64,000 bases of DNA, taken from positions 4,712,001-4,776,000 of the forward strand of contig NZ_CP027712.1 of the NCBI RefSeq assembly GCF_003945765.1, written 5' to 3'. A program made the position numbers and the translations under genes. The stretch is from Pseudomonas chlororaphis subsp. chlororaphis (lineage in GTDB: Bacteria; Pseudomonadota; Gammaproteobacteria; Pseudomonadales; Pseudomonadaceae). The notes beneath the pieces are model-generated. The model was not told where the DNA came from, did no database searches, and was given only the letters and a program-made list of their open reading frames with translations. Below are positions 10,145 through 23,810 of the stretch, piece by piece (position 1 is the stretch's first letter; each line of letters starts with the position of its first letter).

Positions 10145-10741
10145 GTGCCCGCCATGAGCCCGCGTCAACGCGCCGAGATGATCGAAGAAACCCGCAGCAA
10201 ACTCATTGCCAGTGCCCGCCAGGCCTTTGGCAGCCTGGGTTATGCCAACACCTCGATGGACGAGCTGACGGCCGAGGCGGGCCTGACCCGGGGGGCCTTG
10301 TATCACCATTTCGGCGACAAGAAAGGCCTGCTGGCGGCGGTGGTGGAACAGCTCGACGCCGAGATGGACCAGCGCCTGGAGGCAATCTCGCGCGGCACCG
10401 ACGACCTCTGGGCCGCCTTCGTCCAGCGTTGCCGCACTTACCTGGAAATGGCCCAGGAAGGGGAGATCCAGCGCATCATCCTGCAGGATGCACGCGCGGT
10501 ACTCGGCGACCTGACCGAGGCCAGCGAGGAGCAGTGCGTGGCGTCCTTGAGCGCGCTGCTGGATGAGCTGATGCAGGCCAGCCTGGTGGTCAACGCCCCC
10601 AGCGAAGCCCTGGCGCGCCTGATCAACGGCAGCCTGCTCGACGCTTCGCTGTGGATCGCCCGGGATGAGCATCCGGGGCAACGATTGCAGCAGGCACTGG
10701 CCGGGCTGGAGGCGCTGCTGCAGGGCTTGCGGGTGCGCTGA
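10145..10741 (+). CDS. TetR-family transcriptional repressor
   Basis: The protein has 198 residues from GTG 10145, or 195 from the ATG at 10154. The N-terminal helix-turn-helix is clear (SMDELTAEAGLTRGALYHHF), and the C-terminal ligand domain is helical. It is divergent from the MFS exporter and starts 24 bp after the second of two identical palindromes, so it probably represses the exporter and itself. The last 40 residues (ALARLINGSLLDASLWIARD onward) have a decayed second copy at 13599-13735. Confidence 0.88.
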   Translation: MPAMSPRQRAEMIEETRSKLIASARQAFGSLGYANTSMDELTAEAGLTRGALYHHFGDKKGLLAAVVEQLDAEMDQRLEAISRGTDDLWAAFVQRCRTYLEMAQEGEIQRIILQDARAVLGDLTEASEEQCVASLSALLDELMQASLVVNAPSEALARLINGSLLDASLWIARDEHPGQRLQQALAGLEALLQGLRVR

Positions 10742-11661: not shown

Positions 11662-13474
11662 CACGGAACGACAGGCGCCGATCGACGCCCACGGCATCAT
11701 CGGCGACCTGCGCAGCGCCGCGCTGGTCAACGACAAGGGCAGCGTGGATTTTTTCTGCTGGCCGGAGTTCGACAGCCCGTCGATCTTCTGCTCGCTGCTC
11801 GACACCCCGGACGCCGGCATCTTCCAGCTGGCGCCGGACCTGCCCGACGCCCGCCGCGAACAGATCTACCTGCCCGACAGCAACGTGCTGCAGACCCGCT
11901 GGCTGAGCGAACGGGCCGTGGTGGAAGTCACCGATTTGCTTCCGATCGGCGACAGCGAGGATGACCTGCCGCTGTTGATCCGCCGGGTGCGGGTGGTCAG
12001 CGGCCGCGCCACCCTGCGCCTGCGCTGCGCGGTGCGCCATGACTATGCCCGCGCCACCACCCGGGCGCGGCTGGACGGCGACGCCGTGTGCTTCGAGGCC
12101 GAGCGGCAGCCGGGCCTGCGCCTAATCGCCAGCCAGCCCCTGCGCATCGACCGGCAGGCGGCGGTGGCCGAGTTCGAGCTGGAACAGGGGCAGAGCGCCG
12201 AATTCATGCTTGGCGGCATCGACGATCCGCGGCTAGTCACCGGTGGCAGCGGCCTGTGCCTGGAACGCACATTGAAGTTCTGGCGCGACTGGATCGGCCA
12301 GTCCAACTACCGCGGCCGCTGGCGCGAGATGGTCAACCGCTCGGCCCTGGCGCTGAAGCTGCTGACCTCGCGCAAGCACGGGGCGATCCTCGCCGCCGCC
12401 ACCTTCGGCCTGCCGGAAACCCCGGGCGGCGAACGCAACTGGGATTACCGCTACACCTGGATCCGCGACGCGTCGTTCACCGTCTACGCCTTCATGCGCC
12501 TGGGCTTCGTCGCGGAGGCCAACGCCTACATGCGCTGGCTGCGCGGGCGGGTCAGCGACTGCTGCGGCCAGCCGGCCAAGCTGAATATCCTGTACGCCAT
12601 CGACGGCCGCCAGCAGCTGCCGGAAACCCGGTTGCCGCACCTGTCCGGGCATGGCGGCGCGACGCCGGTGCGTATCGGCAACCAGGCCTATGAACAGGTC
12701 CAGTTGGACATCTTCGGCGAGCTGCTGGACGCGGTGTACCTGGTCAACAAATACGGCGAGGCGATTTCCCACGAAGGCTGGAAACACGTGGTGGACGTGG
12801 TGGATCAGGTCTGCAGCAGCTGGGACGGCGAGGATGTGGGCATCTGGGAAATGCGCGGCGAGCAGCATCATTTCCTGCATTCGCGGCTGATGTGCTGGGT
12901 CGCCCTGGACCGGGCCATCCGCCTCGCCTCGAAGCGCTCGCTGCCGGCGCCGTTCGCCCGCTGGGACCAGACCCGCCAGGCAATCTACGACGATATCTGG
13001 AGCAACTTCTGGAACGCGGAACGCGGGCATTTCGTCCAGTACCGGGGCGGCACCGCGCTGGACGGCTCGATGCTGCTGATGCCGCTGGTGCGCTTCGTCG
13101 GCGCCCGCGACCCACGCTGGCTGGCGACCCTGGAAGCCATCGAGAGGACCCTGGTGCGCGACGGCATGGTCTACCGCTACCGCAACGAAGACAGGCAGAT
13201 CGACGGCCTGGCCGGCACCGAAGGCGCATTCGCCGCCTGCTCGTTCTGGTACGTCGAATGCCTGGCCCGCGCCGGCCGGCTGGACCAGGCCCACCTGGAG
13301 TTCGAGCAACTGCTGCGCTACGCCAACCCGCTGGGGCTGTACGCCGAAGAGTTCGACAGCCATGCCCGGCACCTGGGCAACACTCCTCAGGCACTGACCC
13401 ACCTGGCCTTGATCAGCGCCGCGAGTTTTCTCGATCGCCGGCTCAGTGGCGAGAAGATCCTCTGGCAGCCTTGA
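11654..13474 (+). CDS. Glycoside hydrolase family 15 protein (glucoamylase/trehalase-like)
   Basis: The 606-residue protein begins with a trehalase-like N-terminal domain (DAHGIIGDLRSAALV, then FFCWPEFDSPSIF). An (alpha/alpha)6 barrel follows with family motifs RNWDYRYTWIRDASFT near 265, DGLAGTEGAFAACSFW near 515 and GLYAEEFD near 565, supplying the two catalytic glutamates. Bacterial members hydrolyse alpha-glucosides such as trehalose or maltodextrins. No signal peptide is visible, so a cytoplasmic substrate is likely. It overlaps the preceding dehydrogenase. This SDR-GH15 pair is recurrent in Pseudomonas as far as I recall. The substrate cannot be set from sequence alone. Confidence 0.83.
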   Translation: MADTERQAPIDAHGIIGDLRSAALVNDKGSVDFFCWPEFDSPSIFCSLLDTPDAGIFQLAPDLPDARREQIYLPDSNVLQTRWLSERAVVEVTDLLPIGDSEDDLPLLIRRVRVVSGRATLRLRCAVRHDYARATTRARLDGDAVCFEAERQPGLRLIASQPLRIDRQAAVAEFELEQGQSAEFMLGGIDDPRLVTGGSGLCLERTLKFWRDWIGQSNYRGRWREMVNRSALALKLLTSRKHGAILAAATFGLPETPGGERNWDYRYTWIRDASFTVYAFMRLGFVAEANAYMRWLRGRVSDCCGQPAKLNILYAIDGRQQLPETRLPHLSGHGGATPVRIGNQAYEQVQLDIFGELLDAVYLVNKYGEAISHEGWKHVVDVVDQVCSSWDGEDVGIWEMRGEQHHFLHSRLMCWVALDRAIRLASKRSLPAPFARWDQTRQAIYDDIWSNFWNAERGHFVQYRGGTALDGSMLLMPLVRFVGARDPRWLATLEAIERTLVRDGMVYRYRNEDRQIDGLAGTEGAFAACSFWYVECLARAGRLDQAHLEFEQLLRYANPLGLYAEEFDSHARHLGNTPQALTHLALISAASFLDRRLSGEKILWQP

Positions 13475-13507
13475 CCCGCGGAAAAAAGGCGGATCGCGTC
13501 ATCGTTC

Positions 13508-13549
13508 ATCGCGAGTAAGCTCGCTCCTAACACAGTCCGCTGTAGGAAC
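13508..13549. repeat. REP-type palindromic arms
   Basis: ATCGCGAGTAAGCTCGCTCC is followed after about 12 bp by an inverted partner starting TGTAGGAACGAG. This is the usual Pseudomonas REP pattern, downstream of the GH15 gene. Confidence 0.7.
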
Positions 13550-13598: not shown

Positions 13599-13735
13599 AT
13601 GATCCAGGCACTGGCACGCCTGATCAACGGCAGCTTGGTGGATGCCGCATTATGGATTGCCCACGACAAACATCCGGCACCGACTACGACAGGCCCTCGC
13701 AAACCTGAACCTGTTGCTGCAAGGGCTAAAGCGCC
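13599..13735 (+). pseudogene. Decayed C-terminal copy of the TetR regulator
   Basis: From the ATG at 13599 the translation ALARLINGSLVDAALWIAHD matches the C-terminus of the TetR protein encoded at 10145-10741. After His-Pro-Ala near 13679 the match continues in the next frame (RLRQALANLNLLLQGLKR). Aligned to the intact gene, the shift equals a 2-bp deletion. No N-terminal HTH part is present. It is best read as the relic of a duplication or of a second TetR gene, not as a functional gene. Confidence 0.8.
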
Positions 13736-14296
13736 AATACTCCCCAAAAAATCACTGTCGCCAATAGCGCCGGTAGCGCCGAGAACTGGCAGGTACTCAA
13801 GCATCATTCAACTTGTCTAGCCTTAGTTACACCACCCCGTTTGCTCTCGCCATACTTACAACAACTTACATCCCATATGAGCTTATATCGGACCTTGCGT
13901 CATTTTATTGCCGATCTCTGCACTACCGTTATTTCCAACAACTGCTTGCGCTGTGCATCACATCCAGAGAACCGCATCCCAACACCCTTTCCAGCGTGCC
14001 CAACAGCCCGCCGAGGCCAGCGCCCCAGAAAACTCCAAAGGCATGAAAACCGAACAATTCGCTATAATAATTAGCGCAAAACTCCATATAAGGATCCGCC
14101 CAAACGCATAGAGCAGACGCTGCAAACCATTCAACTTTCGCGCATTTAATCCAAGCACTATCTCTTGCAACGAATGACTTGAAAAAGTCAATAACCAGCA
14201 TTAGATTTCGATGTCGATAAATGAAAGTGTCTGATATTTCCTACGTAGTCTGACCAGTAATAACCTCCAATAGCGACGAAGTCATGGAGTCTGTCT

Positions 14297-14842
14297 GTGG
14301 AAGAAACACTTATTCTCGTCAATGCCAATGACGATGAAACTGGCACAGCGCACAAGTTACCTATCCACAAGCAAGGATTGCTGCACCGAGCGTTCTCGAT
14401 CTTCATTTTCGATGACCACGACCGGCTGCTGCTGCAACAGCGTGCCTTCGGCAAATACCATTCCCAGGGTCTGTGGACCAACACCTGCTGCGGCCACCCG
14501 CGCCACGGCGAACAGACTCTCGCTGCCGCCAGACGCCGATTGCGCGAAGAAATGGGGCTGTCCTGCGAACTGTTGGAAGTCGCCACCTTGCTGTACCGCG
14601 AACAGGTGTCGAACCAACTCATCGAGCATGAATACGACCATGTGTTCGCCGGTATCAGCCACGTCGATCCGCAAGCCAATCCCGTAGAGGCCCACGCCTG
14701 GCAGTGGCTGGACCTGGCCGAGATTCCAGAACGCATTGGCACGGCGCCGGACAGCTTCACCGTGTGGTTTCGCAGGCTGTTCGAAACCCCAGGACTGGCC
14801 GGCATACGCGACTGGCAAACACTCGCGCGGAACAACCGGTAG
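14297..14842 (+). CDS. idi: Isopentenyl-diphosphate delta-isomerase, type I
   Basis: The 181-residue Nudix-fold enzyme interconverts isopentenyl and dimethylallyl diphosphate. Diagnostic features are the TNTCCGHP segment with the active-site Cys (64/65), His at 24 and 30, the EHEYDHVF segment with the metal and catalytic glutamates (110, 112), and the degenerate Nudix helix RLREEMG. The start is GTG 14297 with GGAG upstream. Most pseudomonads make both C5 units through the MEP pathway and do not need idi. Its place directly before a methyltransferase and a terpene cyclase implies that it raises the DMAPP supply for farnesyl diphosphate in this cluster. Confidence 0.93.
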   Translation: MEETLILVNANDDETGTAHKLPIHKQGLLHRAFSIFIFDDHDRLLLQQRAFGKYHSQGLWTNTCCGHPRHGEQTLAAARRRLREEMGLSCELLEVATLLYREQVSNQLIEHEYDHVFAGISHVDPQANPVEAHAWQWLDLAEIPERIGTAPDSFTVWFRRLFETPGLAGIRDWQTLARNNR

Positions 14843-14949
14843 GCACCTCTTCTGCCACCCACAAGGGAATCACTATGCCCCCATAGCGGCTGCGGATAAC
14901 CGTTCGCCGCGCGCCAGAACATAACGTGAACGTACACAAGGAGATCGCA

Positions 14950-15921
14950 ATGAGCACTCAAGCCGCCACGCCGCCTCTCGAGACCTATGATCCCCGCCTG
15001 CCCTACCGGATCATCCAGGGTTCCAGTGTCGATACCTATCAGGAAAAGGTCGTGTACACCTATCGCGACAGCCCCGATGACTGGCGCAAGGCGATTGGCG
15101 ATTACCTGCTGTTCCAGTTCGGCATCTACGACGATCCGCGCTCGCCGCAACCGATCAGCCTCGACGAGTCGGGGATCCGCTACTTCGAACGGCAACTGAA
15201 ACTGGCCGGCCTGGAAGAGCCGGACCGCCCGCCGCTCAGGCGCATCCTCGATATCGGCTGCGGCTGGGGTTACATCCTCAAGTATCTGGCCGAGCGTTTT
15301 CCTGAATGCCGGCGCCTGGAAGGCGTGAACGTCAGCTCTCGCCAGCTCGATTTCTGCGCAAAGTTCCACGCCGAGCAAGGCCTGTCCGAGCGGATCAGCC
15401 TTTATCTGTGCAACGCCAAGGACATCGAGCTGCTGCCCGACGCCGACGAACCCTACGACCTGGTAATCATCCGCGGAGTGATCTCGCACTTCCCCGACGC
15501 CCTGTATGAAACCACCATGCGCGCACTCTCCAGCCGGGTCCGCGAAGGGGGTAGCGTGATTATCTCGGACAACCTCTACAACACCGATCCCCAGACCTAC
15601 ACCTCCGATATCCCGGATGAAATCGATCGTCTGGCCTGCAAGCACCGCAAGACGCCGCAGTACTTTCTCCAGGTATTGGAGCAGAGCGGTTTCGCCCTCC
15701 AGGACATGCGCGTGCTGCCCGCCAATATCGATGTCGTGCACTGGCTGATGGACGCCAAGGCCAATATCGAAAACAAGGCGCTGTTTCCCCATGGCGTGAC
15801 GGGCGCGCTGGAAGAGTTGCGGGTACTGGCAGAAAACTGGTCGGTGGCGCTGCTCAAGAACAAGGTCTCGACCTATAGCGTGATCGTGAAACAGCCGCGT
15901 CGCCCGGGAGACTCTCTATGA
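14950..15921 (+). CDS. SAM-dependent C-methyltransferase, farnesyl diphosphate type (SodC-like)
   Basis: The 323-residue class I methyltransferase has motif [12 protein letters not shown] (DIGCGWG at 101-107) and a [12 protein letters not shown] segment after the SAM fold. It starts at ATG 14950, with AAGGAGAT at ideal spacing. Its stop overlaps the terpene cyclase start by 4 bp (ATGA), so the two are coupled. This architecture matches the sodorifen pathway, where SodC methylates and cyclises farnesyl diphosphate to a C16 diphosphate before the cyclase acts. P. chlororaphis is reported to make C17 chlororaphens from a related pair, as I recall. Calling the substrate farnesyl diphosphate is inference from this context. 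Confidence 0.8.
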
Positions 15922-16985
15922 GTACGTTGACCTTGCCCCCTATAGCTTGCCCCCTGCCTTACAGGATCTATCCGTACAGCGAAAGGCTTGAAGCCGGTAC
16001 CAGGGAGTGGATGGACAGATGGCAACTCTACAGTGACGAACAGCATCGCCAGCGGCTGAGCAAGATCGGTTGCGGGCGTCTGGCCGCGCTGATGTACCCC
16101 AGTGCCGCGACCCCTGAGATCGCACAGATCATGTCGGATTATGTGCTCTGGGCCTTCTCGTTCGACGATGAGTATTGCGACGAAGGCCTGATGAGCCAAA
16201 AGCCCGAGCTGTCGATCGCCGCGATGCAGCAGATGCAACGCGCGATCGAGTCGCCCGAGGTCCCTGCCTTTCCTGAAAACCGCTACGCCATGGCCCTGCG
16301 CGATATTCGTCGACGACTGGATCGGTACACCACTGCGCTGCATGTTTCGCGCTTCGTCAATACTCAGCGCGGCTACTTCATGGTCGAGGTCGGGAAGCTG
16401 GTCAACCCGCGGCCGAACTTGAGCGAGTGCGTGCTGCTAAGGCTCTGCTCCGGCGGCGGCATGGTTTTCCCGACGTTTGGCCATATGAGCACACTGGTTG
16501 AGATCAGTCAGTCCGATGTCGAGGACCGGCGTCTGTGTGCGTTGAGTGAAATGGCCGGGATGATGATCGTCTGGGAAAGCGACTTCTTTTCCTATGCCAA
16601 AGAGCTGGCACGCGAACCTGAAGACCGCCAGCACAATATCGTTTCGCTGATTCGCCAACAGCATGGCGTTTCTCATGCCCAGGCCCTGGCTCAAGCCTTC
16701 AGCCTGCGGGACAGGACAGCCGGCCTGTACCTGCGTTTGCGGGCATCGGTATTGTCACAGGCCTCGCCCGAGGTCGCCGCCTATATCGAAAGCCTGGACT
16801 GTTACTGGCGTGGTGGACTGGAGTGGATCAGCGAGAACCCGCGCTACCGCTATCTCAATGGTGTCGACGGAGCAGCGGCCTATCAGGGTGGCGTACTTAC
16901 CGAAACGCTGCCGGACGATCGCTTCGGGACGATCGACATCCCCAGCATTGCCTGGTGGTGGCACTACGATCCGGCCCGGCAGTGA
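15918..16985 (+). CDS. Class I terpene cyclase of the sodorifen/chlororaphen type
   Basis: The 355-residue protein has the two metal-binding motifs of class I terpene synthases: the aspartate-rich DDEYCD at 83-88 and an NSE/DTE motif SDFFSYAKE at 221-229 (Ser in place of the usual Asn, with D222, S225 and E229 kept). An RY pair follows near the C-terminus. It should ionise a prenyl diphosphate in the cytoplasm and release a volatile hydrocarbon. Coupling to the C-methyltransferase and idi suggests the substrate is a methylated C16 or C17 diphosphate. No P450 or other tailoring gene follows, so the cyclase product may be the end product. Confidence 0.85.
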
Positions 16986-17798: not shown

Positions 17799-18563
17799 GT
17801 GGTCCCGAAAATCGACATCACCCATTATTTCGCAGCGACCCGCAAGATGCTGTTCCTGGCGGCACATACGGAAGGAACCGCGCAGCGGCTGGGGTATCAC
17901 GAACACGCCAACCTGGTGTTCAAAAGAACCGCGGAATTTCAGATCGAGTTGATCCAGACCATCGAGCATGTGCTGAAACTGGGTTTGATCAGGCCCGCCC
18001 TGGCCACCCTACGCACCTCGCTTGACCTGGCTGCCCGGTTCTCCTGGCTTGCCGAAAACTTCGATGATCGCCTCGAAAGGTTTTCCCAGGGCCAGTGCCC
18101 TGGCGTGCAAAAAATGATGTCCGCCGCGAACCTCGGCTGGGGCGACGAATACCAGAAGTCCTACGCGCCCCTTTCGGACTTTGTCCACGGCAGCTTTACC
18201 CTGTCCGACTTCAACAAGGTGCAAAGGGACTATCGGCAGGATGCGCCCTACTCCCCCCTGGGCGACTACTTCATTGTCCAGTCGGATGAAGGCACGCATG
18301 TGCGGATAGTCGAAGACGTCACCATCGCCGAACTGATTGCCGAGCACGGGGGCTACATCACGCTGAAAGCCTTCGACATCGCGCTGACCATGCTCATGCG
18401 GGCCTCTGGTGACTATGCCGATGCGTTCAATTGGTGGCCGGGACGCGCGATGCTGGAGGAGTATGACGCGCTCGTCAGCCAGTACGACGACACTACGAAC
18501 TTCCTCTGGCGCTCTGAAAAACACCGGTTGGCCGTTTGCAGGGTAGAAGGCCGCTACCGATGA
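17799..18563 (+). CDS. Hypothetical protein, DUF5677-like
   Basis: The 254-residue soluble protein has no signal peptide or membrane segment. The N-terminal half is helical, with a run near 60-85 (ALATLRTSLDLAARFSWLAE) and the local motif YAPLSDFVHGSF near 125, both resembling the DUF5677 / abortive-infection-like helical family. The start is the GTG at 17799. It has no obvious operon partner. Function unknown; the family match is by eye only. Confidence 0.55.
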   Translation: MVPKIDITHYFAATRKMLFLAAHTEGTAQRLGYHEHANLVFKRTAEFQIELIQTIEHVLKLGLIRPALATLRTSLDLAARFSWLAENFDDRLERFSQGQCPGVQKMMSAANLGWGDEYQKSYAPLSDFVHGSFTLSDFNKVQRDYRQDAPYSPLGDYFIVQSDEGTHVRIVEDVTIAELIAEHGGYITLKAFDIALTMLMRASGDYADAFNWWPGRAMLEEYDALVSQYDDTTNFLWRSEKHRLAVCRVEGRYR

Positions 18564-21709: not shown

Positions 21710-22861
21710 TCAGACCACCGTCAGGTGCATGAAGCCGCCGGAGAAGCGCCCGCTTTCCGGGACGAAACACAGCACGCGCTGCCCCTTGTGCAGGCGTCCA
21801 GACTCCAGCAGTTCGTGGATCATGATGTAGATCGACGCCGAGCCGGTGTTGCCGCGCTCGGACAGGTTGGTGAACCAGCGCTCCTGGGGAATCGCCAGTT
21901 CGGTGTTTTCCAGGCACTCGGCAATCGGCTTGCGAAAGTATTCCGATGACATGTGCGGCAAGAACCAGTCGATGGCCTCGGGCGACAGGTTGCGCTTGAT
22001 CATCACCTCCTTGAGCGGCTTGCCGAGGGTGTACTTCACCACGTTCTCGTTCAGCAGCCGCACGTCCTGCTTGATCGCGAAGATCGAGCGCGAGGCCCAC
22101 TCCTCCGGGGTCAGCAGCTTCCAGCCGATCAGGCTGTCGTCCTCGGCCTTTTCCGCGCCGGCGTACATGCAGGTCGGCAATTCGTTGGCGTAGGAGAAGA
22201 TGTCAATCCAGTCGATGCGCAGCGACAGGCCGCCGGCCCGTGGCTGGTTCTCGAGCAGGAAGGCCCCGGCCCCGTCGGACAGCATCCAGCGCAGGAAATC
22301 CTTATCGAAGGCGATTTCCGGGCGGGCTGCCATCTGCGCCACCAGCGCCTCGTTTTCCGCATCGAAATTGCGCGCATGCAGCACCGGCGAAGGCACCTCC
22401 GAGGCGGTGGCCACGGCATTGCGGCTGGCCCCCGCAAGCACCGACAGGTAGGCATATTTCAGCGCGGTGAGGCCAGCCAGGCAGATGCCGGCGGTGGACA
22501 CCACCTCACAAGGCTTGTTGCCCAGTTCGCCATGCACCATCACGCCATGGTTGGGCATCAACTGGTCCGGCATGGTGGTGCCGGTGGACAGGCATTCCAT
22601 GGCGTCCAGGGTAAAGCCGTCGCCCACCAGGCCCTTGATCGCCTCGGCGGTTATTTGCGCGTTAGTGAAACGGGGAATACCGGTCTGCGGGTCCAGCACA
22701 TAATAGCGCTGCTTGATTCCGTTATTACGCAGCACTACTTGCCGAGACCGCGAAGGTCGCCCGCCTACATACCCGAGAATGCTCTCCATCGTATCGTTAT
22801 CCACTGCCTCTCCCGGCATATAAGTGGATGTTTTCGTGATATAGACAAACAATTCACTCAT
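21710..22861 (-). CDS. darB: Ketosynthase III of dialkylresorcinol synthesis
   Basis: The 383-residue FabH-fold enzyme has the active-site Cys127 in [10 protein letters not shown], His in WFLPHMSS near 301 and Asn in [10 protein letters not shown] near 333, so the Cys-His-Asn triad is complete. DarB condenses two beta-ketoacyl thioesters head to head into the ring precursor of 2,5-dialkylresorcinols. The start at 22861 (MSELFVYI) follows AAGGGTGA at good spacing, while the ATG at 22885 lies inside darA. The darA stop is 7 bp upstream, so the genes are cotranscribed. Confidence 0.9.
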
Positions 22862-22868
22862 GATGATT

Positions 22869-23810
22869 TCACCCTTCGGATTCAAGATTTAGTTGCGAAC
22901 CGGACGGCTGCTCGTAATAACGCTGTAACTTATCGAGCCGCGTCCGGATAAAGGGATGAAGCAAACGGCGTAACACCAGTGAAACAGGCAGGACAGTCAA
23001 GATGACCAACAATAGATAAACGATGAACAGGCACAGCAAGAGTCGCCGTAGCCATTGCCCATACTTGCCGAAACGGCAAATTATTCCCGACCAGAACGTG
23101 AAGCCTCTATAGGCCGCCCGCTCGCTGAGTATCAGCCCGGGGTTGACGGTCGCCGCCCCCAGCCCTGCCAGCATCGGCCCTTCGGCTTGCTCTTTATTGG
23201 CCTGCAAGGCGGCATTCAATGCCCGCCCGAAACGTGCGGCGCCCTGGACATCCTCGGCGCTGATCCCGGCCTTGGGCAGGCCGAGGAATGACTCGCGGCT
23301 GCCGGTGAACATCCAGCGCGGCGTGGTAATCAGGGTGGCGAAGGTGTTGGCCCGGTCGGTCAGCACCACGTTGTCGAGCAACCGCGCGCCGGCCTCGTGC
23401 AGCAGGCGCTTGACCGCCTCCTGGGCCATCAGCCACATGTTGCGGCAGGCGATCACCGTGACCACCGGGCGCCCGGCCAGCAGGCGCTTGCCTTGCGCGC
23501 TCTGGAGAAACGCGGTGATCAGCGGCGACGGCGACAGGTACCAGACCTGATACGCCAGGATCACCAGGTCGAAGGGCCCGCGATGATCGGTATGCAGCGG
23601 TTCGATGGCCGGCGGGCTGAGCTGCACGGTCTCGGGAAACACGTCGAAAAACCGGCCCACCGGCCAGGGAAACGGATAGGCGACCCGGGGCTTGAGCACC
23701 ATCTCATGCACCTTGACCTCCCGCGTCGAACGCAGGGGCGAGATCAGGCTTTCGACTACGTCGTTCAACTGACCGCTTTGCGAATAACGAACCACAAGAA
23801 CATGTTTCAT
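22869..23810 (-). CDS. darA: DarA, dialkylresorcinol condensing/aromatising enzyme
   Basis: The 313-residue protein begins with a flavodoxin-like segment ([19 protein letters not shown], then [16 protein letters not shown]), and the C-terminal third has one or two membrane-spanning stretches ([20 protein letters not shown]). I recognise it as DarA, which with DarB makes and aromatises the resorcinol ring, here probably at the inner membrane. ATG 23810 is the DarA-like start; an in-frame extension to 24044 has no support. The AraC regulators DarS and DarR, which I recall as part of the described cluster, do not directly adjoin it. A lux-box-like palindrome lies about 330 bp upstream. Confidence 0.88.

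Follow-up and report, generated by a model that had tools for sequence, protein, structure and literature searches.

The locus analysed here raises the question of which terpene, C16 or C17, would be made by a C-methyltransferase and a terpene cyclase whose genes lie side by side in Pseudomonas chlororaphis subsp. chlororaphis. The window, i.e. the whole stretch of DNA that was analysed, is 64 kb long, and all positions refer to it. An earlier note on this DNA, made from the sequence alone, had described a homoterpenoid cluster and named C17 chlororaphens as the reported product of such a pair. According to our comparisons, the locus is likely a compact SodC-type homoterpene operon that makes a C16 product via alpha-presodorifen diphosphate and was shortened from a larger cluster. 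It is a homoterpene cluster of an already known kind.

Gene layout

The three consecutive genes named in the earlier note, for idi, a methyltransferase (MT) and a terpene cyclase (TC), are present, and all three frames are intact.

14297..14842, plus strand: idi, type 1 isopentenyl-diphosphate isomerase, GTG start, above the cut-offs of two curated equivalog models (NF002995 and TIGR02150)
14909..14949, plus strand: leader of the MT gene with ribosome-binding site, 79% identical over 47 bp to the dxs-MT gap of L015
14950..15921, plus strand: MT, SodC-type FPP C-methyltransferase/cyclase, predicted to make alpha-presodorifen diphosphate
15918..16985, plus strand: TC, class I terpene cyclase (PF19086), predicted to act on presodorifen diphosphate
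16164..16184, plus strand: Asp-rich motif DDEYCDE of TC, of the DDXXXDE form
16578..16604, plus strand: NSE-type motif SDFFSYAKE of TC, Ser in place of the first Asn

In profile comparison, MT matches methyltransferase models in general terms only, TC scores 74.9 bits against PF19086 (cut-off 23.7), and neither passes an NCBIfam equivalog cut-off. The MT frame is open from a GTG at 14926; the start is probably the ATG at 14950 rather than this GTG, because AAGGAG (14938-14943) precedes the ATG. The leader of the MT gene sits at the junction where relatives have dxs. The 4 bp overlap of MT and TC described earlier is the ATGA at 15918-15921, common to the MT stop and the TC start, which is an ordinary arrangement for coupled genes.

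The methyltransferase

MT is 66% identical over 95% to the Serratia plymuthica protein P0098 (E 1.5e-135), a similarity far beyond chance, and P0098 is named for sodorifen biosynthesis by one source. Together with the class I cyclase beside it, this agrees with the sodorifen-type logic proposed in the earlier note. Identities of 80-85% over 93-98% of the MT length are reached by homologues from several Pseudomonas and from Burkholderia sp. FERM BP-3421. Five methyltransferase sequences in PDB match with E-values from 2e-148 to 3e-126, 24uw (named VbFPPMT) being one of them; 9sls and 9sm0 are related structures as well. We predict that MT is a SodC-type FPP methyltransferase. From the 120 MT proteins listed, 17 entered the first alignment and 14 the MT tree, which has 56 rows and leaves out duplicate loci and the broken P. 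grimontii pieces.

Fourteen active-site residues of the S. plymuthica FPPMT have been tested by mutation, according to PMC7862628. In our alignment, all 14 are present in P0098 at the published numbers and 12 are kept in the window MT (Y39, W46, F56, Y61, H191, N219, D237, L239, C241, D272, E297 and W306, Serratia numbering). The other two are changed, E42 to Ser and H45 to Asp. The first MT of P. grimontii (L040) has the same two residues, and so do 12 of the 37 aligned group I MTs, a set that includes the window MT, with the window and L040 among the twelve. Both E42 and H45 are found only in three Serratia loci of this set (L031, L049, L050). According to the same source, the E42A exchange abolished SodC activity in Serratia, which is a mild concern for position 42 of the window MT. 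The changes at 42 and 45 are unlikely to abolish its activity, because PgrC of this P. grimontii strain, with the same residues, is active in vitro (PMC13022886).

C16 or C17

Two MTs, one of group I and one of group II, are required for the C17 terpenes chlororaphen A and grimophan, together with a group B cyclase that carries DDMPLG; the group I MT of these pathways yields gamma-presodorifen diphosphate (PMC13022886). The window's genome, one contig of 6.8 Mb, contains one SodC-type MT and one such TC. A second, group II MT is absent from it: at E 1e-5 just one further match appears, with 26% identity (E 1e-10). Compared with three Pseudomonas group B-type cyclases (L036, L040, L045), TC shows 21-22% identity, and it has DDEYCDE instead of DDMPLG. 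A C17 product was rejected for lack of a second MT and of a group B cyclase, and the chlororaphens named in the earlier note are not what we expect from this pair.

The window MT has GYIL in motif I, L302 and W306, as do SodC and 16 other locus rows. The group I MTs of L036, L040, L045 and L047 have GFGL in motif I, M302 and V or L306, and all four are accompanied by a second MT. Beside the 33 non-GFGL group I MTs a second MT was found once, in B. territorii (L023), and L033 cannot be judged in this respect as its sequence ends just after the MT. The two-MT cluster of B. territorii breaks the pattern, its first MT having the SodC-type signature (GYIL, L302, W306). In L022, L030, L039 and L048, M302 and L306 are found with GSVL, and no second MT was found there; in Photorhabdus MTs, position 306 is Phe or Leu. 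A gamma marker made up of just 302 and 306 was rejected, as both vary in other loci.

According to PMC9440906, residue 302 of SodC influences the product, 306 is near the modelled substrate, and single changes redirect the product. Positions 57, 58, 219, 273 and 302 of SodC matter for the product (PMC11070974), and at all five the window MT is identical to SodC. We predict alpha-presodorifen diphosphate and a C16 product for the window cluster, because in motif I and at positions 302 and 306 its MT agrees with SodC rather than with the gamma makers. The alpha/gamma signature is what we infer from very few characterised enzymes.

The terpene cyclase

The alignment shows both metal motifs in TC, as well as an RY pair and, at the sensor place, an Arg. 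The MT gene thus adjoins a class I cyclase with Asp-rich and NSE-type motifs, as in a C16 homoterpene cluster. The Ser for the first Asn of the NSE motif, pointed out in the earlier note, is there, but this Asn is missing in 43 of the 57 cyclases of our tree, S. plymuthica (L049, Ser) included. At this place 25 cyclases, including the window TC, have Ser, ten have Thr, six Ala, one Gly and one Val. Ser is common across the cyclase family and not special to the window TC. For the Serratia cyclase, PMC4872519 reports DDXXXDE and no NSE motif, and quotes the stretch NDRYAVAMR. The solved cyclase 21ig, which we infer to be SodD, contains this stretch; its SSDCYSYFKE aligns with the SDFFSYAKE of the window, so that enzyme has Ser at the same place. 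The loss of the Asn was also considered as a mark of MT-partnered cyclases. The Asn is present in all four cyclases from genomes without MT and absent in 14 of 18 from MT loci (counting L051, whose MTs are broken); the tree gives one independent pair, and the idea found no support.

Cyclase frames outside 300-500 aa were excluded, then nine fragments or duplicates, which left 86. From these 86 rows, 18 distant cyclases were removed along with 11 near-duplicates or partial rows, which gave a tree of 57. The window TC groups with P. lini, P. brassicacearum and proteins labelled P. yamanorum and P. salmasensis, in a clade of nine rows (100/99) that has a Variovorax protein among its sister rows. 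The L049 cyclase of S. plymuthica belongs to a clade of its own kind (100/100), separate from this one, and is 33% identical to TC, which places TC outside the SodD clade. Sodorifen itself is unlikely as the product, because the L049 cyclase lies in another clade at this low identity.

P. mandelii and FW300-N2E3 have MTs with 82-83% identity to that of the window and cyclases with 39-45% to TC, so the MT is conserved and the cyclase varies, as already stated for such clusters (PMC12723460). No product of the P. lini-type cyclase clade was found in our literature search; it may well be known. The product of the window cluster is probably a C16 terpene, to which we assign no structure. In four other loci (L019, L022, L029, L047), two or more cyclase genes lie near one SodC-type MT.

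Related clusters

In P. lini DSM 16768 (L018) and P. brassicacearum 48H11 (L015) the gene order is MFS - truncated dxr - idi - dxs - MT - TC - ispH - ispG - GH15. Their MTs are 77% and 82% identical to that of the window and the TCs 79% in both; these TCs belong to the clade of the window TC (100/99), each beside its MT. Both clusters retain dxs, ispH and ispG, missing from the window copy, and lie between the MFS and GH15 genes. In the window these two genes are upstream of the cluster, which is thus found downstream of GH15. A P. lini MT, which may not be the gene of L018, has been compared as one from characterised pathways (PMC12723460), and we found no product for the P. lini TC in the literature.

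The sodABCD cluster of S. plymuthica has idi, MT and a class I TC in the same order as the window, and its cyclase (L049) has, like TC, the reported DDXXXDE motif and the Ser in NSE. It differs in having dxs (sodB), missing in the window, and in its more distant cyclase. P. fluorescens FW300-N2E3 (L016) resembles the window in carrying dxr relic - idi - MT - TC downstream of GH15, with no dxs, ispH or ispG within the 16.9 kb examined. However, its MT is 83% identical but its TC 44% and of another clade, i.e. a different cyclase behind the same kind of MT.

In the chlororaphen and grimophan clusters the group I MT belongs to the same family as the window MT (60-65% in L036, L040, L045 and L047), but they differ by a second (group II) MT and by the cyclase (21-22% in the three Pseudomonas loci). 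The C17-type cluster of GM50 (L036) occupies the same MFS-GH15 interval and includes Rieske genes as well as dxs, ispH and ispG. The last three genes are missing from GM18 (L045), where idi, both MTs and a group B-type cyclase are found. G016 (L083) carries dxr-idi-dxs-ispH-ispG but lacks an MT. It seems that supply genes were lost on more than one occasion.

Two further observations concern these genomes. The MEP set without MT in G016 (L083:4177-11439) adjoins a partial cyclase frame, for which the best model is a family 2 encapsulin cargo cyclase, below cut-off; a similar piece is found between SDR and MFS in L088. P. grimontii DSM 17515 has a second locus (L051, L097), a homoterpene cluster in which dxr, idi and both MT genes are broken up but two full-length cyclase frames remain.

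Relics and probable promoter around the cluster

The following features surround the three genes.

13605..13700, plus strand: relic of a TetR C-terminus (residues 154-177 of the window's own TetR)
13750..14249, no strand: AT-rich stretch, GC 0.466
13754..13804, minus strand: relic of a dxr N-terminus (17 residues)
14179..14207, plus strand: probable operon promoter TTGAAA-N17-TAGATT, similar site before idi in 9 of 11 loci
14229..14296, plus strand: conserved idi leader, 73-74% identical over 73-75 bp to L018, L040 and L083
17004..17084, plus strand: relic of ispG (residues 227-253 of 422), downstream of TC

The AT-rich scar noticed earlier beside the cluster is real, with GC 0.466 at 13750-14249 vs 0.632 over the 64-kb window. 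It lies between GH15, which ends at 13474, and idi. Its identified part consists of the dxr and TetR relics, in which no mobile element was seen, and much of the rest is unassigned. The TetR relic is 79% identical over 24 residues (73% over 95 bp of DNA) to the intact gene at 10145-10741, a TetR by PF00440. The dxr relic, a short match of 17 residues, is 71% identical to the DXR of L083 (tblastn, E 4e-4), and its DNA matches L083 (38 bp at 87%) and L019 (33 bp at 88%). It has the same orientation and place upstream of idi as dxr or its pieces in L015, L018, L019 and L083. A REP-like element (our own label), with many copies in this and related genomes, lies at 13487-13529.

The ispG relic is 81-85% identical at the protein level (E down to 9e-12) and matches eight loci over 80-86 bp at 78-86%, with L036 and L096 representing the same cluster. 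In L083 the MEP genes score above the cut-offs of curated models for Dxr (TIGR00243), Dxs, IspH and IspG (TIGR00612). The search for pieces of dxs or ispH gave nothing below E 0.1. The window copy has lost its supply genes: dxs and ispH are undetectable, and dxr and ispG are relics.

In the relative G017, the GH15 and isochorismatase-like genes are about 50 bp apart vs 3.7 kb in the window. This spacing and the rarity of MT in the genus (see below) bear out the proposed acquisition. Our guess is that recombination with a donor cluster beside MFS and TetR explains the place downstream of GH15 with a TetR tail. Short imperfect direct pairs near the insert ends (25 nt at 76%, 13353 and 16993; 15 nt at 87%, 13798 and 17242) were given no weight as end repeats, as such pairs often arise by chance. 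The DUF5677 gene at 17799-18563 has no DNA match elsewhere in 38 genomes and no protein match in the compared regions, and may be another insertion. Further on, at 21710-22885 on the minus strand, a StlD/DarB-family ketosynthase above the NF005293 cut-off is perhaps part of a dialkylresorcinol gene set.

The promoter-like site is some 90 nt upstream of idi. In nine of the 11 loci a similar site, with a spacing of 16-17 nt, is found at about the same distance; L017 and L030 do not match the pattern, which was written after the alignment of the loci had been seen. A scan of the window alone found two sites vs 1.7 expected, no better than chance, so the weight rests on the kept place. The idi leader is not conserved in all 11 loci.

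Distribution, precursor supply and selection

MT was found in 4 of 398 Pseudomonas species genomes (E 1e-60) and TC in 6 of 398 (E 1e-20), the window's own genome included in both. An MT relative (E 1e-40) occurs in 2 of 72,556 plasmid records, neither from Pseudomonas. The 38 loci from named genomes include a weak match (L052, 31%) and a broken copy (L051); the remaining loci are from Pseudomonas, Serratia, Burkholderia, Photorhabdus, Collimonas, Achromobacter, Variovorax, Mesorhizobium, Lysobacter and Crossiella.

Besides the idi of the cluster, the genome has no clear type 1 IDI (the other match is 25% identical, E 1e-5), and one clear DXS is encoded elsewhere. From its position and length we take the gene downstream of the P. 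grimontii cluster to be pgrF; its homologue in the window's genome (86%) is about 3.2 Mb distant from the cluster. PgrF reportedly raises titres.

By counting, dN/dS of MT is 0.11 vs both P. lini and P. brassicacearum. For TC in the same comparisons dN is 0.14-0.15 and dS 2.9 or saturated, and for MT and TC together dN is 0.10-0.15 vs a dS of 0.9 up to saturation. The low dN relative to dS means that MT and TC are under purifying selection. In the same pairs dS is higher for MT and TC than for GH15, which fits a separate, partly horizontal history.

Proposed pathway and alternatives

In the proposed pathway, idi would balance IPP and DMAPP for the supply of FPP. MT would transfer a methyl group from SAM to C10 of FPP, and rearrangement of the cation would give alpha-presodorifen diphosphate (C16). 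TC would ionise this diphosphate and form a C16 hydrocarbon (m/z 218 if C16H26, as sodorifen) or an alcohol, and the product would be released as a volatile. The operon would descend from a larger cluster of the dxr / idi-dxs-MT-TC-ispH-ispG type. With dxs and ispH undetectable and dxr and ispG reduced to relics, precursor flux would rest on genes elsewhere plus idi. The MT-TC cluster is probably active, as predicted from its genes.

A C17 chlororaphen- or grimophan-like product is extremely doubtful: GM50 (L036, seen again as L096) does have a C17-type cluster between the same MFS and GH15 genes, but the window's genome encodes a single SodC-type MT, this MT is without GFGL, M302 and V/L306, and TC is far from the L036, L040 and L045 cyclases and without DDMPLG. 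We regard it as unlikely that MT makes gamma-presodorifen diphosphate or another C16 diphosphate isomer, which TC then uses. The redirection of SodC by single changes (PMC9440906) makes sequence prediction uncertain and the signature has exceptions, but the five positions that matter for the product (PMC11070974) are all as in SodC. That the locus is a decaying, non-functional remnant would agree with the neighbouring MEP relics and the GC-poor surroundings; with idi, MT and TC all intact, a low dN vs dS in both comparisons and a promoter-like site kept in place, we consider it quite improbable.

TC might also be an ordinary sesquiterpene synthase acting on FPP, with MT beside it in an unrelated role. 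Its best NCBIfam match is selina-4(15),7(11)-diene synthase (218 bits, cut-off of 450 not reached), and relatives of TC at 41-43% are found in four Pseudomonas genomes, none of them among the four with MT (E 1e-60). However, those relatives form a separate 100/100 clade, the MT and TC genes overlap, and the two nearest named relatives keep MT beside TC, which makes this explanation highly improbable. A pathway of the 2-methylisoborneol type (GPP methyltransferase plus cyclase) or with an actinobacterial C6-FPP methyltransferase shares the same gene logic, but its probability is practically negligible. Both were rejected on the score against the GPP methyltransferase model NF041943 (20 bits vs a cut-off of 400) and on the absence of 3vc2, 7fbh and 9tb4 (named in PMC12929941) among 53 PDB matches. 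The C16 product via alpha-presodorifen diphosphate is the reading we keep.

Implications

The locus adds a compact and probably active C16 homoterpene cluster in Pseudomonas, as judged from its sequence. It corrects the expectation of a C17 product and accounts for some of the scar next to it. In the comparison it is the MEP supply genes that look dispensable and are lost; MT and the cyclase are retained. The comparison also suggests a cheap sequence test for C16 vs C17 pathways. A tentative extension, possible but rather doubtful, is that the P. lini-type cyclase clade makes an undescribed C16 skeleton and that the MT sequence tells alpha (GYIL/L302/W306) from gamma (GFGL/M302/V or L306). If true, the alpha signature would mark C16 pathways and the gamma signature those feeding C17 pathways, and the locus would illustrate the repeated trimming of clusters to a self-sufficient idi-MT-TC core.
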